Positions 26,680-37,586 of a DNA stretch of 38,069 nt are shown piece by piece. This DNA is from Verrucomicrobiota bacterium. GTDB lineage: Bacteria > Verrucomicrobiota > Verrucomicrobiia > Opitutales > Opitutaceae. The translations under genes and the position numbers were made by a program. How positions within the stretch are numbered: the first letter of the stretch is position 1; each line of letters starts with the position of its first letter. The stretch is taken from positions 1-38,069 of the forward strand of contig QQNC01000005.1 of the NCBI GenBank assembly GCA_003402695.1, written 5' to 3'. The notes beneath the pieces are model-generated. The model saw nothing but the letters and a program-made list of their open reading frames with translations. It was not told the DNA's origin and ran no database searches.

Positions 26680-27345
26680 TCAGGGCAGCTTCAGCAGCTC
26701 TTCCGCCGACCATTCCTTGCGGTCGGCTTCCTTCGCGTGGATGGCGGCGACCTGCTCGGACGTGACGGCGGGAGCCTTGTTGCCGAACGACGCGCGGATG
26801 TAAGTCAGCACGGCGGCGATCTTGTCATCGCTCCAATTGTAGCCGGAAGCGGCGACCTTGCCGAACACGGGCATCGCGGCGGCGCTATAGACGGTGCCCT
26901 TGACCGACACGGGGCCCTTCAGGCCGTGCAGCACGATGCGGATCAACCGCTCCTCGGAGCCATTGACCCACTCGGACTCGGCGAGCGGCGGGTAAACGCC
27001 GGGCACGCCCAGACCGGTGACCTGGTGGCAGGTGGCGCAGACGAGCTCGAAATTCTTTTTGCCCAGCACCATCGGGTCGATCTTCGCCACTGCGGTCACG
27101 CCCTTGGTGGAGTGGCCATTCTCGTTGAACACGGTCGCATCGTAGCGGGCCGAGTACTGATTCAGGTAGGTGCCGGCGTAGAAGATGAGTCCGCTGAACA
27201 CGAACAGCAGCACGAGCGGCAGCATCTTGTAGTGGGCCCCGTCGTCGGGCTTGCGGCCCAGCAGCTTCTCGTGCGCGGCCTGCAGGCTTTCATCCGAGGC
27301 GCCGGCTTGCTCCACGCGCGGATCTTTGGGCGTCAGGTCGCTCAT
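26680..27345 (-). CDS. Membrane-anchored monoheme cytochrome c
   Basis: N-terminal TM MLPLVLLFVFSGLIFYAGTYL; single heme motif FELVCATCHQVTGLGVPGVYPPLAESEWV; distal Met region AAAMPVFG. Confidence 0.9.
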   Translation of the reverse strand: MSDLTPKDPRVEQAGASDESLQAAHEKLLGRKPDDGAHYKMLPLVLLFVFSGLIFYAGTYLNQYSARYDATVFNENGHSTKGVTAVAKIDPMVLGKKNFELVCATCHQVTGLGVPGVYPPLAESEWVNGSEERLIRIVLHGLKGPVSVKGTVYSAAAMPVFGKVAASGYNWSDDKIAAVLTYIRASFGNKAPAVTSEQVAAIHAKEADRKEWSAEELLKLP

Positions 27346-27971
27346 TTGGATTCACCCTCCTTGGTGGCGGCCGGCTCAACCGGCCGGGCCTCAGGATATT
27401 CGTAGACGTTGTTCAGGCTCTGCAAATAGGCGACCAGGGACACGGCGCGGTGCGTGGGGATGATCTCGTAGCCCGCCGGGGCGGCGGCCTTGAGCGCATC
27501 CGCCGAGCGTTCGCCGGTGATCTTCCGCTCCTCAAAGAGGAACCGGTAGGCCGGCATGCCGCCATGCGGCTCGTAAAGGTACTGGGTCAGGCGGGTGGCA
27601 TCCACCGCGAGAGGCCGGGCGCCAAACGTCGCGAGATCCGGGCCGACCCGGCTCTCGCCGAGCTGCACGTGGGCTTGGCTGACATAATCGCGGGCCACGC
27701 TCTGGCGGTCGCCCCACCCGCGGGCCTTGTCGCTGCCAAAGTCCGGGCGGCGCACCTGCTGGGTGTGGCACGCGGCGCAGCCGAGGTCCTGGTAGACGAG
27801 CTGGCCCTGCGCGGCGATGCCGGGCATGCGCTCGGGGAAGGCCTTGCCCTCGTTCTCGTCAAAGTAAGGCGCGAGATGGCCGAGTTGGACATGGGAACCC
27901 ATCACGATGCCGGTCCAGGCCAGCGCCACCGCGAGGAAAAGTCCCAGGAAAAAGGTGAAGCCGTTTTTCAT
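27342..27971 (-). CDS. CcoO-like monoheme cytochrome c (cbb3 oxidase subunit II homologue)
   Basis: MKNGFTFFLGLFLAVALAWTGIVMGSHVQLG...QGQLVYQDLGCAACHTQQVRRPDFGSDKARGWGDRQSVARDYVSQAHVQLGESRVGPDLATFG...GGMPAYRFLF; CcoO-type CAACHTQQVR signature. Confidence 0.88.
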   Translation of the reverse strand: MKNGFTFFLGLFLAVALAWTGIVMGSHVQLGHLAPYFDENEGKAFPERMPGIAAQGQLVYQDLGCAACHTQQVRRPDFGSDKARGWGDRQSVARDYVSQAHVQLGESRVGPDLATFGARPLAVDATRLTQYLYEPHGGMPAYRFLFEERKITGERSADALKAAAPAGYEIIPTHRAVSLVAYLQSLNNVYEYPEARPVEPAATKEGESK

Positions 27972-29386
27972 GACACGGACGCCTCCATCGTCGGAGCCGG
28001 GTTGAAGACCGCGGGAGCCACTGACTTGGCGGCCGCGAGCCAGAAGAGATGGGTGGCGAGCAAAAGATTACCGAGCAGCAGGATGGCCTGCCCCGCCGTG
28101 GCCGCGAGCAGCCAGGGACGGACATGACCGGCGATGTCCGCGAACGGGATCGCTGCGGTATTCAAATCGTGGCCTTGCACGCAGCCGGCGCCGATCAGGG
28201 TCACCACCAGGACAATCGTACCCGTGAGCGCGGCGGCGTAATGCGCGCGGATCAACGGGACCGACGGCCAGGCCAGGCCGGTGATGCGCGGGACGAGGAA
28301 GTAAATGGCGCCGTACATCAGCATCGAGAAGGCGCCGTTGAGCGCCAGTTGGGCCTGGCCCTCGCTGAAGTGGGTGAACTGGGTGTGCACCGCCACGCCG
28401 CGCATGGCCGTGTAGGCGTCGAGGAACCCGCCGGCCACGTAGGCCGCGAGACCGAAGGCGACAAACTTCAACACCGTGCTGCCGCCGCTGCAAAACGCCC
28501 CGCGGAGGTTCACCGCGACCACGATGTAGTGGAACAGCAGCAACGCGCAGGAGACCACGGCAATCGTGGCGACCCAGGCCGGCACCGGTCCGCCGATCAG
28601 GTGGCGGCCGCCCGTCCAGGCGCCGACAAAGAGCAGCGTCCAGAAGCTGAGCTGGGCAAAATCATAGCTGGGGATGATCCGGCCGGTGATCTTCGGCACG
28701 AGGTAATACGCGGCGGCGAGCGCCAGCGGCGCGAGCCAGAGCGTCCACGCACCCTGCACAAACCACCCGGCTACGAGTGCCTGCAGGACGCCGCGCTCGG
28801 GGGCGAAGACCAGCATCATCTGGGCGATGGAGAAGAGCCACGGGAAGAGGAACAGCGCGGCCACGGCGTACCATTGCGCGGCAAAGGTCATTTCCTTGCG
28901 GCGACCCGTCCAGGCCAGCACGCCGGGCACGGCAATCGTGCCATAGGCCACCAGCAGCATCGGGAGGACGTAGGCGGGCAGGTGCAGCCAGGCATTGGAG
29001 GTCATGTCGCCGGTGGCGATGCCCGCGATGCCGAGGATGAGGGCGAAATTCCAGAACAGCGTGCCGGCGACGACCCAGTTCAGGGAGCGCAGCGGCGCGC
29101 CACCGAGGCGGGCCAGCAGCCACAGGGCGACGGCGAGACCGGAGTTGGCGGCCCAGCCGTAGATGAACGCGGTTTCCTGGATGGCGGACAAACGGCCGTA
29201 AGTCAGAGCGGAGCAGCCGGCCATGAATTCCGGGGTGTGCAATTGCACGAGATTCGCGAGCGCCAGGATGCCGCTCAGCACCAGCCACAGCAGGGCGGAA
29301 CCCAGCAGCAACAGCAGCGGCCACCGCGCGGAGGTGTCGATCTCGGTGACTTCGGCCGCATCAGCGGCTTGGGGGGCAGTGGTCAT
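27968..29386 (-). CDS. Divergent cbb3-type heme-copper oxidase subunit I (CcoN-fold) lacking most canonical heme/CuB histidine ligands
   Basis: Multi-TM MTTAPQAADAAEVTEIDTSARWPLLLLLGSALLWLVLSG...; alignable landmarks YGRLSAIQETAFIYGWAANSG, GWFVQGAWTLWLAPLALAAAYYLVPK, FVGAWTGGRHLIGGPVPAW, FSEGQAQLALNGAFSMLMYGAIYFLVPRI. ORF-track start 29500 is over-extended; ATG at 29386 is better. Confidence 0.85.
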   Translation of the reverse strand: MTTAPQAADAAEVTEIDTSARWPLLLLLGSALLWLVLSGILALANLVQLHTPEFMAGCSALTYGRLSAIQETAFIYGWAANSGLAVALWLLARLGGAPLRSLNWVVAGTLFWNFALILGIAGIATGDMTSNAWLHLPAYVLPMLLVAYGTIAVPGVLAWTGRRKEMTFAAQWYAVAALFLFPWLFSIAQMMLVFAPERGVLQALVAGWFVQGAWTLWLAPLALAAAYYLVPKITGRIIPSYDFAQLSFWTLLFVGAWTGGRHLIGGPVPAWVATIAVVSCALLLFHYIVVAVNLRGAFCSGGSTVLKFVAFGLAAYVAGGFLDAYTAMRGVAVHTQFTHFSEGQAQLALNGAFSMLMYGAIYFLVPRITGLAWPSVPLIRAHYAAALTGTIVLVVTLIGAGCVQGHDLNTAAIPFADIAGHVRPWLLAATAGQAILLLGNLLLATHLFWLAAAKSVAPAVFNPAPTMEASVS

Positions 29387-29408
29387 TACAAAAAGGTGGG
29401 TGCGGCAA

Positions 29409-29705
29409 TTACTTCTTGGCCGCGTATTTCTGCACGGTGAGTTCCATGGCGACATCCAGCGGGAGCTGGACCACGCCGGCCTTCTGATCGACCCAGCCAT
29501 AGCTCGCGGCCTGCTTCGACTGCTTGGCCTGGAGATCCGCCAGGTTCTGCTTGCGCTGCTCAGCAGTGCGAATGCCGTCGCCGGTGAACGGCCCGGTCTG
29601 GTGCGGCAGGTAGATGGAGTAAACTACCGCGGCGAACAGCGCGAAGCCGGCCAACACTGTCAGGATGGTCACGAGCGGGGCGGAACGGGAAGGTTGGTCA
29701 CTCAT
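29409..29705 (-). CDS. Small single-TM protein of the ACIII/oxidase operon
   Basis: 98 aa; TM APLVTILTVLAGFALFAAVVYSIYL; C-terminal GWVDQKAGVVQLPLDVAMELTVQKY, which resembles small oxidase-associated proteins. Confidence 0.75.
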   Translation of the reverse strand: MSDQPSRSAPLVTILTVLAGFALFAAVVYSIYLPHQTGPFTGDGIRTAEQRKQNLADLQAKQSKQAASYGWVDQKAGVVQLPLDVAMELTVQKYAAKK

Positions 29706-30942
29706 GGTGGGTGAGGCTCTCGCCGACGCGCGGGTCGCGGATCGGGATCAGCTTGGTCGTCGGGAAGCTCTTCAGGTAGGCCCAGATGCAGACGCCACCG
29801 ACCCCGATGACTGAGGTCAGCACCCAGAGCAGGTTGAGCGAAAGGAACGGGAGCGAGTCGCCGTGCTCATCCTTCAACGCCGGGAGGATGTTGTAGCAGA
29901 GGTCGATCAGGATGATTGTGAGGGTCCAGTAGGCGATGCGGCGGATGATGGGCGGCGTGACCTTGAAGCGATACGAGAGCAGCGCACAGAATGGGACGAC
30001 GAAGTGGCCGAAGAGGATGACGAGGCCGACGTACCACCATTGGTTGGTCGAGCCGTCGTGGTTCAACTCGCGGAGGTTGTACCAGAAGGTTTCCTCGGGG
30101 ACGTTGGCGTTCCAGATCAGGAAGTACTGGGAGAACGTGACGTAGGCCCAGAACACCGTGAAGGCCAGCATCAGCATGCCGATGCTGTGAAAGTGATTCG
30201 TGTTGATGATGCCCTTGTAGTCGCCGCGGTTGAGGAGCCAGACCATGATCAGCACGCCGCCGCAGAGGGCGCCGCGGGCACAGTTCGCGAAGAACCACAC
30301 GCCGTACATCGTCGAGAACCAGTGGTACTCCAAGCTCTTGATCCAGTAGATCGCGGCGAAGGTCAGCGTGAGCGCCGCGATCGGCAGGCCGATGGCGGAG
30401 TTGAAGCGGTTCTGGTAAGTCCACTGGACGTCACCGTCGGAATCCTGCGTGAAGGAGGCCTTGCGCAGGCGGGCGGAGAGCCAGACCCAGGCGGCGAAAA
30501 ACACGAGGGTCATGACCGTGAACGTGTAGATGTTCAGGAAGCCCTCTTTCTTCAGGTAAAGGATGTCGGTGCCGACCGTGCCGTGGCCGTGCAGGACGTG
30601 GGACTTGTCCATCCAGGGCCAGACAAAGCCCGGCTTGCTCCAGGCCAGGATGAGCAGGGGCAGGAACAGCACGAAGAGCCACTTGAACGCCGCGAGGCCG
30701 TGTTCCCACTGGCGGCGGATGACCACGGACCACGACGCATCGGTGATGTGGTGGATCAGGATCATCAGCAACATGCCGATGGCGATGGCGGTCCAGTAAG
30801 AGACGCCCACGAGGTAGGACAGCGCCACGCCGTGCTTCTCGGGCGCGAACAGCGCCGCCAGGGCGGTCGCGGCGAGGCCGATCAGGCCGATGGTGAGCGC
30901 CTTGCCGGCCGGGGCGGCGGTGGAGTTAGCGGGGGTGCTCAT
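29698..30942 (-). CDS. actF: Alternative complex III integral membrane subunit ActF
   Basis: Multi-TM protein SYLVGVSYWTAIAIGMLLMILIHHITDASWSVVIRRQWE...TFSQYFLIWNANVPEETFWY...; position after ActE in act operon. Confidence 0.88.
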   Translation of the reverse strand: MSTPANSTAAPAGKALTIGLIGLAATALAALFAPEKHGVALSYLVGVSYWTAIAIGMLLMILIHHITDASWSVVIRRQWEHGLAAFKWLFVLFLPLLILAWSKPGFVWPWMDKSHVLHGHGTVGTDILYLKKEGFLNIYTFTVMTLVFFAAWVWLSARLRKASFTQDSDGDVQWTYQNRFNSAIGLPIAALTLTFAAIYWIKSLEYHWFSTMYGVWFFANCARGALCGGVLIMVWLLNRGDYKGIINTNHFHSIGMLMLAFTVFWAYVTFSQYFLIWNANVPEETFWYNLRELNHDGSTNQWWYVGLVILFGHFVVPFCALLSYRFKVTPPIIRRIAYWTLTIILIDLCYNILPALKDEHGDSLPFLSLNLLWVLTSVIGVGGVCIWAYLKSFPTTKLIPIRDPRVGESLTHHE

Positions 30943-31577
30943 TTCAGGCCAAGGGTTTCACGGGCGTTGGCGTCGGTGACATCCGCCGCGGTGCCCAGCT
31001 GGGCGCGCTGGAGGGCGCGGACATAAAGGATGACAGCCCAGCGGTCCTCGGGGAGGAGCTTGTCGGCGTAAGGCAGCATGTTCTTGTTGGGCGAACCGTG
31101 CGTGATGGTGTTGAAGAGTTCGCCCTCGGCCATCTGGCGCAGGCGGTCGTCGTGGTACGTGGGGGTGGCGCCCATGCCGTACTGCTTCGTGATGCCATTG
31201 CCGTCGCCCACCGCGCCGTGGCAGGGCGCGCAGTAGATGGTGAAACGGTCCTGGCCGCGGGCCATGAGCTGGTGGTTGACCGCGACCGGGAAGCCGCGGA
31301 CCCAGCTGCCGTCGGCGTGCTTGCCGGCGTAGAGCGCATCGTCATTGCGCAGCGGATCACTTGAAACCACGCCCGCGGGCAGCGGACGGTCGGCGCGGCC
31401 GTCCGCGAAGAATTTGCTTTCGCCCTGCGGCTTCGGCTTGGGCTGGCGCTTCATGCCGGGGAAGGCCCATTCCGGAAAGACGTCGATCGGCGAGCTCGTG
31501 AACAGGGAGCCGCGGAATCCGAAGAGGGAAACGAGCAGCACGACCGCGAACGCAGTGATGAGGTAGACGTTGCGCAT
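30939..31577 (-). CDS. actE: Alternative complex III monoheme cytochrome c subunit ActE
   Basis: DRFTIYCAPCHGAVGDGNGITKQYGMGATPTYHDDRLRQMAEGELFNTITHGSPNKNMLPYADKLLPEDRWAVILYVRALQ; CxxCH plus act operon context. Confidence 0.9.
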   Translation of the reverse strand: MRNVYLITAFAVVLLVSLFGFRGSLFTSSPIDVFPEWAFPGMKRQPKPKPQGESKFFADGRADRPLPAGVVSSDPLRNDDALYAGKHADGSWVRGFPVAVNHQLMARGQDRFTIYCAPCHGAVGDGNGITKQYGMGATPTYHDDRLRQMAEGELFNTITHGSPNKNMLPYADKLLPEDRWAVILYVRALQRAQLGTAADVTDANARETLGLK

Positions 31578-31580
31578 GGC

Positions 31581-32114
31581 TCAGGCTTCCAGCTCCTTGA
31601 TCGACTTGCCGCCGGCCTTGGCGAGCAGCGCGGTGGTGTTGGCGAGGTTGAAGCGCGGATCGCGCGCCTCGATCACGATGAAAAAGGCGTCGTCCATGCC
31701 CCGCTTGATCTGGTCGTACTTCAGGACCGGGTGGTAGTGACGCGGCAGGCCGTTCACGACAAACATGCCGATGATCGTCGCGAAGGCGGTGAAAAGAATC
31801 GTCAGCTCGTAGGAGACCGGGAAGGCGAACATCGGGCTGAACAGCGGCTTGCCGCCGACGATCAGCTTGTAGTCCGAGGCGCCCGTCCACCAGATCAGCG
31901 ACATGCCGGTGCAGAAGCCGATGAGGCCGCCGGCGAGGGAGATGCGGGGCACGATGGAGCGCTTCAGGCCCATCGCCTGGTCCAGGCCATGCAGCGGACA
32001 CGGGGCGATGACGTCCCAGTTTTTGTAGCCGGCGTCACGCACCTGCTGCGCCGCGTGGTAGATTTCCGGCGCGGTTTCGAAGGTGGCGATCAGGCCATAG
32101 GAGGGTGCAGCCAT
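31581..32114 (-). CDS. actD: Alternative complex III subunit ActD (DUF3341)
   Basis: MAAPSYGLIATFETAPEIYHAAQQVRDAGYKNWDVIAPCPLHGLDQAMGLKRSIVPRISLAGGLIGF...; ATG at 32114 rather than 32537. Confidence 0.93.
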   Translation of the reverse strand: MAAPSYGLIATFETAPEIYHAAQQVRDAGYKNWDVIAPCPLHGLDQAMGLKRSIVPRISLAGGLIGFCTGMSLIWWTGASDYKLIVGGKPLFSPMFAFPVSYELTILFTAFATIIGMFVVNGLPRHYHPVLKYDQIKRGMDDAFFIVIEARDPRFNLANTTALLAKAGGKSIKELEA

Positions 32115-32125
32115 GGTCGGGAAGA

Positions 32126-33547
32126 TTAGGGGTGGTCGCCGCCGTGCACGTCCGCCTGGGGCGTGACAGCCTTGAGTTCCGCCATCGGCATGATGGGCAG
32201 GAAACGGATGAAGAGGAGGAAGAGCACCGAGAACACGCCGAAGGTGCCAAAGAAGGTGAAGATCTCGACGATGGACGGGCTGTAGTAACCCCAGCTCGAG
32301 GGCAGGAAGTCGCGGGCGAGCGAGGTGACGATGATCACGAAGCGCTCGAACCACATGCCGACGTTGACGAAGATCGAGAGGATCCAGACGAACCACGTGC
32401 AGTGCCGGACCTTCTTGAACCAGAAGAACTGCGGCGTGATGACGTTGCAGCTGATCATGATCCAGTACGCCCAGGCGTAGGGCCCGAAGGCGCGGTTGAT
32501 GAAGGTGAAGCCCTCGTACGGATTCGCGCTGTACCACGCGATGAAGAACTCCATCGCGTAGGCGTAGCCGACGATCGTGCCGGTCGCCAACGTGATCTTA
32601 CACATGCAGTCGATGTGATACTGCGTGATCAGGTCCTCGAGCTTGTAGACCGCACGGAGCGGCAGCATGAGCGTGAGCACCATGCCGAAGCCGGAGAAGA
32701 TGGCGCCCGCGACGAAGTACGGGGGGAAGATGGTCGTGTGCCAGCCCGGGAGCAGCGACACCGCGAAGTCGAACGACACGATGGTGTGCACCGAGAGCAC
32801 GAGCGGCGTGGAGATGCCGGCGAGGATGAGGTACGCCATCTCGTAGTTGCTCCAGTGGCGGTTGGAACCGCGCCAGCCCAAGGCGAAGAAGCCGTAGAGG
32901 AACGAGCGGAGCTTGTTGCCCGCCGCCTCAAAGCGGTCGCGCAGCACCGCGAGGTCGGGCAGCAGGCCGATGTACCAGAACAGGACGGAGACCGTGCCGT
33001 ACGTCGAGACGGCGAACACGTCCCACTCGAGCGGCGAACGGAAATTCTGCCAGAGATAGTTGGAGTTCGGGATCGGGAACAGGAACCACGCGTACCAGAT
33101 GCGGCCGACGTGGAAGACCGGGAAGATGGCGGCGCAGACGACGGCGAAGATCGTCATGGCCTCGGCGGCGCGGTTGATGGACGTGCGCCACTTCTGGCGC
33201 AGCAGGCAGAGAATGGCCGAGATCAGGGTGCCGGCGTGGCCGATACCGATCCAGAACACGAAGTTGACGATGTCCCACGCCCAGTTGACCGGGTTGGCAT
33301 GGCCCCAGACGCCGACGCCCGTGGCGACGAGGTAGGTCAGGCCGGCGACGGTGAACGACGCGACGAAGCAGGCGACCGCGAAGCACCACCACCACCACAC
33401 CGGGGTCTTGCCCTCGATGATGCCGCAGATCTTCTCGGTGATCCACGAGAAGCTGCGGTTGTTGGCAACCAGCACGGCGCGCGGCAGCACCGCGGGCTTC
33501 ACTTCCCCAAGAATGGCCGGCGCAGCGGCGGATTCGGCGTGGGCCAT
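32126..33547 (-). CDS. actC: Alternative complex III subunit ActC (NrfD/PsrC-like)
   Basis: Multi-[34 protein letters not shown]...[10 protein letters not shown]-like [38 protein letters not shown]. Confidence 0.94.
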
Positions 33548-36500
33548 TAGCTGAGCCCTCCCACGCGTTTGACCGCGTCAATCATGGCGTGGCCAGGTTC
33601 CTGCTTTTCCACGGCCTCGGGGTGGTGACCGCCGGGGTGGTTCTTGAGGTTGTATTCCTTGCGGCTGTACGGAATCGAGATCGCGGCGTAGTCGGGCATC
33701 GACGGGTTCGGGTTGCGGAGCTTGCCGAGATAGGTGGTGCGGGGACGGATGTTGAGGTAGCCGAGCAGCGCGTAGTCCTGCTGGCGGGCCTTGGCCTGGG
33801 AAACGGCGCTCCCGGCATCGAGGATGTTGCCGAAGACGATGGCCTCGACCGGGCAGACCTGCTGGCAGGCCGTCTTGATGGTGCCGTCCGGGACGCGGAC
33901 GTCATCGAGCGAAACGGCGGCGCCGTTGTGCTCCTGGTTGACCTTCACCTTGTGCCGGATCTTCCCGTTCTGGATGCGTTGCACGCAGTAAGTGCACTTT
34001 TCCATCACGCCGCGCATGCGGATCGTAACCTCGGGATTCTTCACCATCTGCACGAGCTCGGGCATGCCCTTCGGGCCGAGCTGGCTGAGGTAGAGGCTGT
34101 CGAGCTGGCGCTGGTTGTAGTCGAAGAAGTTGAAGCGGCGGACCTTGTACGGACAGTTGTTCGCGCAATACCGGGTGCCGATGCAGCGGTTGTAGGCCAT
34201 CGTGTTCAGGCCTTCCTCGTCATGCACGGTGGCGTTGACGGGGCAGACGGTCTCGCACGGGGCGAGCTCGCACTGCTGGCAGGCGATGGGCTGGAGCGAA
34301 ATCTGGGGATCCTCGGGCAGCTCGTGGTTGCCCGGGCCACCGAAGGCGCCGGCGTCGGCGTTGCCATCGGAGTAGTAGCGGTCGAGGCGGATCCAGTGCA
34401 TCTCGCGGCCGCGGAGGACCTGATCCTTGCCGACGATCGGGATGTTGTTCTCGGCCTGGCAGGCGACGACGCAGGCGTTGCAGCCGATGCAGGTGTTGAG
34501 GTCGATCGACAAGCCCCACTGGTGGATGCCGTCGAACTTCGGGGTCGAGTAAAGTGAACCGCCGCGGGGAATCTCAGCGGCGCGCTGCGCCGGCGTCATC
34601 TCCGTGCCGAGTTCGCCCAAAACGGACGGGCTGTGCGACTCCATGCCGATGCCCTTGACGTAGGCCAGGCCGGGACCGCCCTCTTTCGTGACTTCGTCGA
34701 AATTGGCTTCGCGAACGAGATCGCGGCCTTCCATCGACCAGTGCTCCTGGACGTTGGCGAGCTGCGTGCGTTCACCGGTGTCCACCAGCGTCGCGCCGGT
34801 GGCAAAGCTCATCGCCGCCGTCGTGCGGAGCGGATAGGCGCTGGTGCCAGCACCCTGCCCCACGTGGCCGGTCGCGGTGCGGCCGTAGCCGAGCGCGATG
34901 ACGAGCGTGTAATTCGAAAGGCCGGGCTGGATGTGCACCGGGCCGCGGATCTTGCGGCCACCGACGGTGACCTCGAAGACGCGGGCGTTTTCCTTGCCAA
35001 TCTCAAATTCGTTTTCCTCGACGCGCGCCACCTGCAGCAACGCGCCCTTGGGGTTGATGCCGAGTTCCTTGCCGAGCTTCGGGCTAACCAGGATGGCGTT
35101 GTCCCAGGAAATCTTCGTGATCGGGTCCGGGCATTCCTGCAGCCAGCCGTTGTTGGCGAAGCGACCGTCATCCATCTTGTGGTCGGTGACGAAGCGGACC
35201 TCGAGATTCTTGGCGGACAGGACCTCAAACTTCGGCGTGGACGCAAACAGGGTGCTCGCGCCGGCGAGGTCGTAGCGGACGCCCACCTTCGGATAGGCCG
35301 AATCAGCCAGCAGACCGTCGTGGAGGAACTGGCGGAAGGTTTTCTCGGCGTCGGCGCCGGGGTTCAGGCCCGTGATCGTCGCGTAGACCTGCGCGTAGCC
35401 ATCGGTCATTTCCTCACCCAGGATGTGACTGAGGATCTCGATCTCGGTCAGGCCGTTGAACAGCGGCAGAATCATCGGCTGCACCGGGACGATCGTGCCG
35501 TCCACCGTGCGGGCGTCGCCCCACGACTCGAGATAATGCGTGCTCGCGATCTGCGTGGTGGTCAGCGCGGAGGTCTCATCGGCGTAATAACCGACGCGGA
35601 TGACTTCGGGCACGGACTTCTGCAGGCTGCTCCACTCGAGATCGGCCGGGGCGTTGTAGGCGGGATTGCCGCCGAGAACGACGAGGGTCTTGACCGAGCC
35701 ACCCTTGATCGCGGTGGCGAGGGCGGAAATCGTGGAGGCACCGCTGGCACCGATTTCAACGAAATCAACCGTCTTGCCGACGTTCCCGAGGGCGGAATTC
35801 AGCGCGTAGACGATCGCGTGGACCGCGGCGGACTGGTGCGCACCGGCGACGACCACGCACTCGCCGGCATGATCACGCAGGTCTTTCGCGCAGGCGGTGA
35901 GCCACTTTTCCTGATCCTTGAAATCGAGACCCTGGGCCAGCGCATCGAGCGATGACGAACCCATGACCTTGCTCGCGAGGGCCGCGGCGAAGGCCGCCAT
36001 GTGGCTGCTGGCGAGGCGCAGACGGTGATCCGCCATGCTGCCGGTGAGGCTGAGGCCGCTCTCCACGACGTAGAGGCGGTTCATCGCGTCAGCGCGCGAC
36101 TTCACGCGGCGGCCCTGGGCGAACTCGCGGGCATAAAGCAGACTGCCGGCCTCGGCGTGGAAGAAATCGGCATCGAGGCTGACAATGCGCTTGGCCTTGG
36201 CGAAATGGTAGAGGGGCTTGACGTCGCGACCGAAGGCGGCGCGGGCGGCGGCCGCGGGCGGCTCGTCCTGCACCGGCTCAAACTCCGCCCAGATGGCCCG
36301 GGGGAACTTGGTCTTCAGCTTGCCCAGCAAGCGGGCCCGGGTCGGGGAACTGGACTCCTCCGCAAGAAAAGCGAGGCCTTCGCCCCCGTTGGCCGAGGCG
36401 GTTTGGCCGAGGCTGGCCAGCAGCGCGGTCACCTGGGCGGACGTGGCGTCCGCGCCCTTGATCGTGTGCTTGATGGCGCGGTCCGGATCGTAAAGGTCGA

Positions 36501-36936
36501 GCACGGAGGCCTGGGCCAGCAGCGTGCTGGCGCCACCGTGCGGGGCGTAGCTCGGGTTGCCCTCAAGCTTGGTCGGACGACCCTGGTGGGTCTCGGCGAG
36601 CAGCGGGATGGCGGACTTGCGCAACGGCATCGCCGTCGCGAAATAAAGCGGCAGACCCTGAATCACACCCTCGACCGACTTGCCCCACGGCAGCACATAA
36701 CGCTCGGGACGGCGGCAGCCGGCGAGGCCGAGGCCACCCAGCGCGAACGAAGCGGCCATGATCTTGGTGAACTGGCGGCGGTCGACGCCCTCCATGGACG
36801 AGGAGCCCTCGGGGAATTCACGCGCCAGCTGCGCCTTGAAGCCCGGCGTGGCGGCCAGCTCATCGAGGCTACGCCAGTATTTCGGACCGGTGAGTTCGCG
36901 TTCCGAGGATTCAGGATGGTGAAATTTGCGTTTCAT
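33547..36936 (-). CDS. actB: Alternative complex III subunit ActB (molybdopterin-oxidoreductase-like plus ferredoxin-like Fe-S domains, Tat-type signal)
   Basis: [23 protein letters not shown] Tat/lipobox-like N-terminus; Fe-S motifs [56 protein letters not shown]...CQQVCPVEA. Confidence 0.95.
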
Positions 36937-37586
36937 CGATGGCAGCCGGAGCAGCTTTGCGGAGGTTTGATGTTCCGGTCGGTCAGGAATTTATGCGCGG
37001 CCGCTAAGCCGGACTTCTGGGCGATGGTCGGCGAGTTCAGGTTGTAGATGTCGCCCTTCTCCCGGACAAATCCCGCGGGGTCGCGGTGGCAGTCGAGGCA
37101 GAAGCCCATGCTGAGGGGCTTGGCGTGGGCGACGACTTCCATCTCGTTAATCTTGCCGTGACATTCCACGCAGCTGACGCCGCGGTTCACATGGATCGCG
37201 TGGTTAAAATACGCGTAATCAGGCACTTGGTGAATCTTGACCCACGGCACAGCCTCACCGGTTTCGTAGCTGTGGCGCACGACTGCAAGCAGGGGGCTGT
37301 CCTTCTTCACCTGGTTGTGGCAGTTCATGCACGTCTGCGCGGTCGGCAGGTTGGCCACGCCGGACTTCTCGATGTTGCTGTGACAGTAACGGCAGTCGAT
37401 GCCGAGCTGGCCGGCATGGAGGGCGTGGCTGTACGGCACAGGCTGGACCGGGGCGTAACCGACGCGCGTGTACTTCGGCGTCATGTAATAATTGGCGCCG
37501 GCCGTCACAATGCCGCTCAGCACCACCAGATACACAATGATCTGGAGCGGCAGCTTGTTCGCGGATTTGGGAAAGATGTTCGACAT
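36933..37586 (-). CDS. actA: Alternative complex III pentaheme cytochrome c subunit ActA
   Basis: Five CxxCH motifs: CRYCH, CMNCH, CVECH, CLDCH, CSGCH; N-terminal TM. Confidence 0.94.
   Translation of the reverse strand: MSNIFPKSANKLPLQIIVYLVVLSGIVTAGANYYMTPKYTRVGYAPVQPVPYSHALHAGQLGIDCRYCHSNIEKSGVANLPTAQTCMNCHNQVKKDSPLLAVVRHSYETGEAVPWVKIHQVPDYAYFNHAIHVNRGVSCVECHGKINEMEVVAHAKPLSMGFCLDCHRDPAGFVREKGDIYNLNSPTIAQKSGLAAAHKFLTDRNIKPPQSCSGCHR

Follow-up and report, generated by a model that had tools for sequence, protein, structure and literature searches.

The histidine ligands are the defining trait of heme-copper oxidases, and the locus described here raises the question of what a cbb3-type subunit I would be kept for, behind the genes of alternative complex III (ACIII), once those ligands have gone. 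The gene, referred to here as N, lies in a stretch of 38,069 nucleotides from an Opitutaceae genome of the Verrucomicrobiota, termed the window here:

27968-29386, minus strand: N, a CcoN-like subunit I without the ligands of heme b, heme b3 and CuB, 472 amino acids

The frame is open throughout with no stop inside, in keeping with the intact reading frame of the original prediction, and homology to CcoN spans the whole length of the protein (PF00115, together with an hhalign probability of 100). The PF00115 match reaches 120 bits (cut-off 34.8), the match to the ccoN family TIGR00780 reaches 82.6 bits, far below the equivalog cut-off of 583 bits, and the closest solved structures are the CcoN chains 9g6b, 3mk7 and 6xkw. 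A 463-codon frame (28049-29440, plus strand) lies antisense over N and appears by eye to be a GC-rich mirror frame and no gene.

Alignment to Pseudomonas stutzeri CcoN places Gln at His60 and His207, Gly at Tyr251, Arg at His257 and Gln at both His345 and His347, with only His258 retained. N thus reads Q,Q,G,R,H,Q,Q against H,H,Y,H,H,H,H and has lost six of the seven residues that make up the cbb3 active site. The claim that the heme and CuB histidines had been replaced, mostly by glutamine, is confirmed in this alignment, and the five codons named for it all proved correct on re-reading:

29177-29179, minus strand: Gln70 codon, at the position of CcoN His60, the low-spin heme b ligand (alignment and profile alignment)
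28754-28756, minus strand: Gln211 codon, at the position of CcoN His207, CuB (alignment and profile alignment)
28604-28606, minus strand: Arg261 codon, at the position of CcoN His257, CuB; the adjoining His262 (CcoN His258) is retained
28355-28357, minus strand: Gln344 codon, at the position of CcoN His345, heme b3 (alignment and profile alignment)
28349-28351, minus strand: Gln346 codon, at the position of CcoN His347, heme b (alignment and profile alignment)

Among the features required of a C-type oxidase, the six histidine ligands of heme b, heme b3 and CuB are reduced to one, and the cross-linked catalytic tyrosine (Tyr251) is replaced by glycine. A full-length CcoN family sequence is present, yet under the ccoN equivalog cut-off, as are CcoO and CcoP with covalent heme motifs (FixO and Cytochrome_CBB3 domains), P having a single motif. 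The nitric oxide reductase NorB, which shares the fold, requires histidine ligands for its hemes and FeB, and these columns are also lost.

The possibility that alternative histidines fill the ligand columns was rejected by a profile alignment and a histidine census. The profile was built from only the 89 relatives that retain no more than one ligand, intact relatives being left out so that the register was not borrowed from them, and was aligned with hhalign to two canonical CcoN sequences. The match had a probability of 100 over 427 columns and an identical register at all four motifs, and therefore no other histidine enters a ligand column. This HMM-HMM alignment and column scoring, proposed with the original prediction, upholds the ligand loss, and other histidines in the heme and CuB positions, which would have refuted it, are absent from the ligandless-only profile alignment. 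In the census, the sole histidine to reach 70% conservation among ligandless relatives was H382 (92%), which is invariant in intact copies too, and no histidine pair conserved across ligandless proteins was found. The complex containing the window's N is inferred from these columns, without biochemistry, to bind no b heme or copper; a residual metal site in ligandless N cannot be excluded, given that His258 remains in 46 of 105 ligandless proteins. Residue 286 of the window's protein (28529-28531) is a new histidine in place of an invariant proline (CcoN 282), possibly with a new function. The intact ACIII-linked N of six loci (L027, L029-L032 and L034) also lack the glutamate at the canonical CcoN Glu323 position; its absence even from intact ACIII-linked copies indicates a divergent C-type subfamily.

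Relatives were searched only within the Verrucomicrobiota. An N protein is present in 50 of 57 close relatives (E<=0.001, a count that includes canonical CcoN matches). At E<=1e-40 it is found in 114 of the 120 genomes from the family and in 89 of 388 sampled across the phylum. The number of active-site residues kept by 142 of the relatives is bimodal: 37 proteins keep all seven and 105 keep none to three (0 in 29, 1 in 68, 2 in six and 3 in two), with none keeping four to six. Sequence or assembly error was rejected as the source of the loss, the same state being present in many genomes, and chance was ruled out by same-genus copies and about 90 further copies with the same kind of loss. Replacement residues vary with the lineage, being rich in Gln in the window's clade, with Ala/Arg/Trp, Phe/Glu/Ala or His/Ser/Gln/Lys combinations outside it.

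The window's copy belongs to a minus-strand cluster with the order ActA-ActB-ActC-ActD-ActE-ActF-(98 aa)-N-O-P, in which 4-nt overlaps at N/O and O/P support the translational coupling of N to its neighbours that had been proposed:

36933-37586, minus strand: ActA, with five CxxCH motifs
33547-36936, minus strand: ActB, Fe-S protein of 1129 amino acids with Fer4 domains
32126-33547, minus strand: ActC, NrfD family, 473 amino acids (PF03916, 82.6 bits)
31581-32114, minus strand: ActD-like protein (start chosen at MAAPSYG)
30939-31577, minus strand: ActE-like mono-heme cytochrome c
29698-30942, minus strand: ActF-like protein, 414 amino acids, named from its position and its homologues in the ACIII cluster
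29409-29705, minus strand: 98-amino-acid protein between actF and N, with one predicted hydrophobic helix, present in most relatives
27342-27971, minus strand: O, CcoO/FixO-like mono-heme cytochrome c (PF02433, 38.8 bits; CAACH; Met of MPAY retained)
26680-27345, minus strand: P, CcoP-like mono-heme cytochrome c of the CBB3 type (PF00034/PF13442; CATCH)

The 98-amino-acid protein has no Pfam or NCBIfam match and terminates in a YGWVDQKAGVVQLPLDVAMELT motif. The actA-B-C-D-E-F set that characterises ACIII is complete here, and all six genes occur in 82 loci. All 97 ligandless loci have ActF next to N, and full ActA-F is present in 59 ligandless loci where the flanks suffice. Intact N occurs outside ACIII clusters too, with three intact copies having no ActF nearby in their locus, in one case because of a contig end. 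Two intact members of the CcoN subfamily without ACIII linkage (L095, with an unusually long frame of 999 codons, and L112) come from genomes that also carry an ACIII-linked copy (G024 and G472, respectively). The association of N, O and P with ACIII is observed as genetic linkage, and their physical assembly is inferred, without structure, expression or biochemistry.

The c-heme partners have been kept. The CxxCH motif of O is present in 96 of 97 ligandless loci, the lone exception ending at a contig edge, and that of P in all 95 ligandless loci possessing P; these motifs, the surrounding residues and the P methionine are as conserved in ligandless clusters as in intact ones. The axial methionine of the O heme, judged by its alignment column, is present in 32 of 32 intact against 68 of 96 ligandless loci, where the substitutes include ten His, six Cys and five Lys (21 of 96), the rest being mostly non-ligands. 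Exchange of this methionine for His, Cys or Lys (e.g. in L059, L066, L101 and L163) never occurs in intact loci. The O heme may have been retuned in ligandless loci, or may be failing in a few lineages.

Trees of the linked genes point to repeated loss of the ligands. With ligand columns removed, the N gene tree requires three changes between intact and ligandless states, and on this tree the ligandless branches are longer and could attract one another. The ActB+ActC tree requires 17 changes, 13 of them forced by well-supported branches, and rejects a single ligandless clade (AU p 1.4e-6). The O+P tree requires ten, seven of them forced. Genus g20 is mixed, with G030 and G317 intact and G462, G473 and G486 ligandless, and the O+P tree groups L096, L197, L163 and L199 with support 97. 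In family f11 the ligandless L128 and L200 lie amid intact sisters. Recurrent loss of ligands is the simplest reading of these trees; transfer of N between lineages could be responsible for part of the change counts.

Such recurrence, along with strongly varied replacement residues and the longer ligandless branches, is also what could be expected of a decaying remnant that lost its oxidase function and persists only through translational coupling in the operon, an explanation that is largely refuted and retains hardly any credibility. Pairwise dN/dS, an analysis proposed with the original prediction, is 0.08-0.33 for ligandless and 0.08-0.14 for intact N (pairs with dS <1.5), overlapping intact copies and the O, P and ActF neighbours and indicating purifying selection, and the higher values are inflated by upstream extension in some frames. 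No stop within the match is found in any N copy reported, and the gene persists in nearly all genomes of the family, as given above. Glycine, proline and tryptophan positions that look structural are still 90-100% conserved in ligandless N, the conserved, structural-looking positions being G64, W112, P137, W208, P231-K232, W249, P267, P269-W271, Y362, P366-R367 and G389. A pseudogene was rejected on dN/dS values that are not near 1 and an undisrupted frame. The view of N as a selected and not a decaying gene is accordingly supported by dN/dS, intact frames, actF linkage, the kept c-heme motifs and repeated evolution.

Oxygen reduction has other candidates in these genomes. A whole search of the window genome identified three further PF00115 proteins besides N:

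Contig C4: A-type PF00115 protein with a CuA partner
Contig C43: fused cbb3 with all ligands present
Contig C24: B-type-like PF00115 protein

All ligandless genomes among the 80 of a census also encode another heme-copper oxidase (PF00115). The single PF00115 protein of G046, G041 and G192 is an intact ACIII-linked N, and G013 and G437 have no PF00115 oxidase and no N either. In 12 class-level loci, of which 11 are ligandless, N is followed after 1.4-2.6 kb by the start of an A-type coxA in the same orientation. Replacement by N, O and P of a subunit II (missing CuA) of the adjacent coxA was considered and rejected, PF00116 matches being found nearby in those genomes.

N is probably a former C-type (cbb3-like) oxidase core that now serves as a redox-silent membrane scaffold of ACIII, holding two c hemes toward separate oxidases, although its role as an anchor is inferred. 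N would pack with the membrane helices of O and P and hold their hemes c beside ActA and ActE. Electrons would pass from menaquinol through the ACIII hemes to the P and O hemes c and on to a distinct terminal oxidase of the aa3, ba3 or fused cbb3 kind. Where coxA adjoins N, this last step would be direct, within a supercomplex; it would otherwise run through a soluble carrier, as is probable in the window genome. The catalytic centre would thus have been outsourced, the former oxidase keeping nothing but its electron exit. In Flavobacterium johnsoniae, aa3 receives its electrons from ACIII alone, and ActE is dispensable (PMC8552683), so alternative exit cytochromes are plausible. An AlphaFold2 model of the window's N, made from a four-sequence alignment, had a mean pLDDT of 35 and was not used.

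The same residues and genomes bear on other possible roles. Heme-free energy coupling, with N providing a proton channel or quinone site for ACIII, is unlikely: some polar positions are still conserved (K232, R367, H382 and Y227/Y228), but these are common to intact copies and may be structural, whereas further polar residues invariant in intact N, among them R57, N62, E122, H156, H291, R437 and H448 (CcoN numbering), have for the most part gone, and no quinone motif was identified. Slightly less probable is an assembly or regulatory subunit, a pseudoenzyme partner of the real oxidases outside the electron path, which would fit the restriction of ligandless N in the census to genomes with other oxidases but not the fact that N is always coupled to ACIII and to O and P with their c hemes. 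The idea of an unusual electron carrier, with a heme or metal on other ligands such as H258/H382 or the H286 of the window's clade, is very doubtful. H286 is found in 45 of 97 ligandless and 0 of 33 intact proteins, every carrier being within the window's Gln-type clade; the remaining ligandless lineages are without it, and the absence of a histidine pair shared by ligandless proteins also counts against such a carrier. The redox-silent scaffold agrees with the earlier proposal of a selected, repurposed subunit unable to house the binuclear centre, supported here by the ligand loss, from which the absence of cofactors is inferred. Among the functions proposed for such a subunit, an electron-transfer platform or scaffold is favoured, and nothing specific speaks for a proton or quinone role.

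The genomes with pMMO genes belong to the ligandless ACIII-linked group. In G096, taken as Methylacidiphilum fumariolicum SolV, the ACIII-linked N (L208) reads S,E,S,S,H,F,V against HHYHHHH, the heme motifs of O and P are intact and an aa3-type coxA lies directly behind N. Two further methanotroph loci, L207 and L209, are similar, with a ligandless ACIII-linked N and an aa3-type coxA directly next. A canonical ccoN was not found in G096, where no TIGR00780 match exceeds 28.5 bits (cut-off 583); its PF00115 proteins comprise four with A- or B-type-like scores, one at 198 bits that is perhaps NorB, and N at 49.5 bits. The methanotrophs G125, G096, G108 and G311 also have a second ActC-like gene in a long frame (702-791 codons), perhaps marking a second ACIII-like complex.

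The ACIII-linked genes of Methylacidiphilum and Opitutaceae have been described as a functional cbb3 oxidase (PMC6688271, PMC8498564). The gene cluster is the same, but the ligand columns do not support this reading. The three genes behind ActABCDEF listed as 'Cox I-IV' (PMC13274419) are possibly, by inference, the same N-O-P module. It seems reasonably likely that cofactor-free oxidase core subunits arose several times in ACIII clusters as a permanent electron-exit anchor, and that several published 'cbb3 oxidases' of the Verrucomicrobiota, including that of SolV, are of the same kind and reduce no oxygen. A literature search found no mention of the ligand loss; an earlier mention in Refojo 2010 or 2012 is not excluded.

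The module resembles cbb3 CcoNOP (P. stutzeri, 3MK7) in the order of its N, O and P homologues, the full-length CcoN register and the c-heme motifs of O and P, and differs from it in lacking most of the active site, in having one heme motif in P instead of two and in its location behind actA-F. As in the ACIII-caa3/aa3 supercomplexes of F. johnsoniae and Rhodothermus marinus, ACIII genes are linked to an oxidase-like module and to c hemes able to pass electrons, but the partner in those organisms is a working A-type enzyme, whereas the window's N has lost its cofactor ligands. The inferred model also shares an anchored c heme between complexes III and IV with the Rhodobacter bc1-cbb3 supercomplex containing cytochrome cy (PMC8361435), in which cytochrome cy is itself anchored in the membrane; in the window a dead oxidase core would do the anchoring.

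Wholesale ligand loss that recurs while gene, operon and partner hemes are all kept is unexpected, and the intact and ligandless copies form a natural progression between oxidase and scaffold, even within a single genus, which makes the question of how ACIII hands over its electrons directly testable. The counting of cbb3 among the oxidases of verrucomicrobial methanotrophs, which has been tied to high O2 affinity, is an annotation unsupported by the ligand columns and is corrected here, and low-oxygen respiration inferred from genomes needs a check of these columns.
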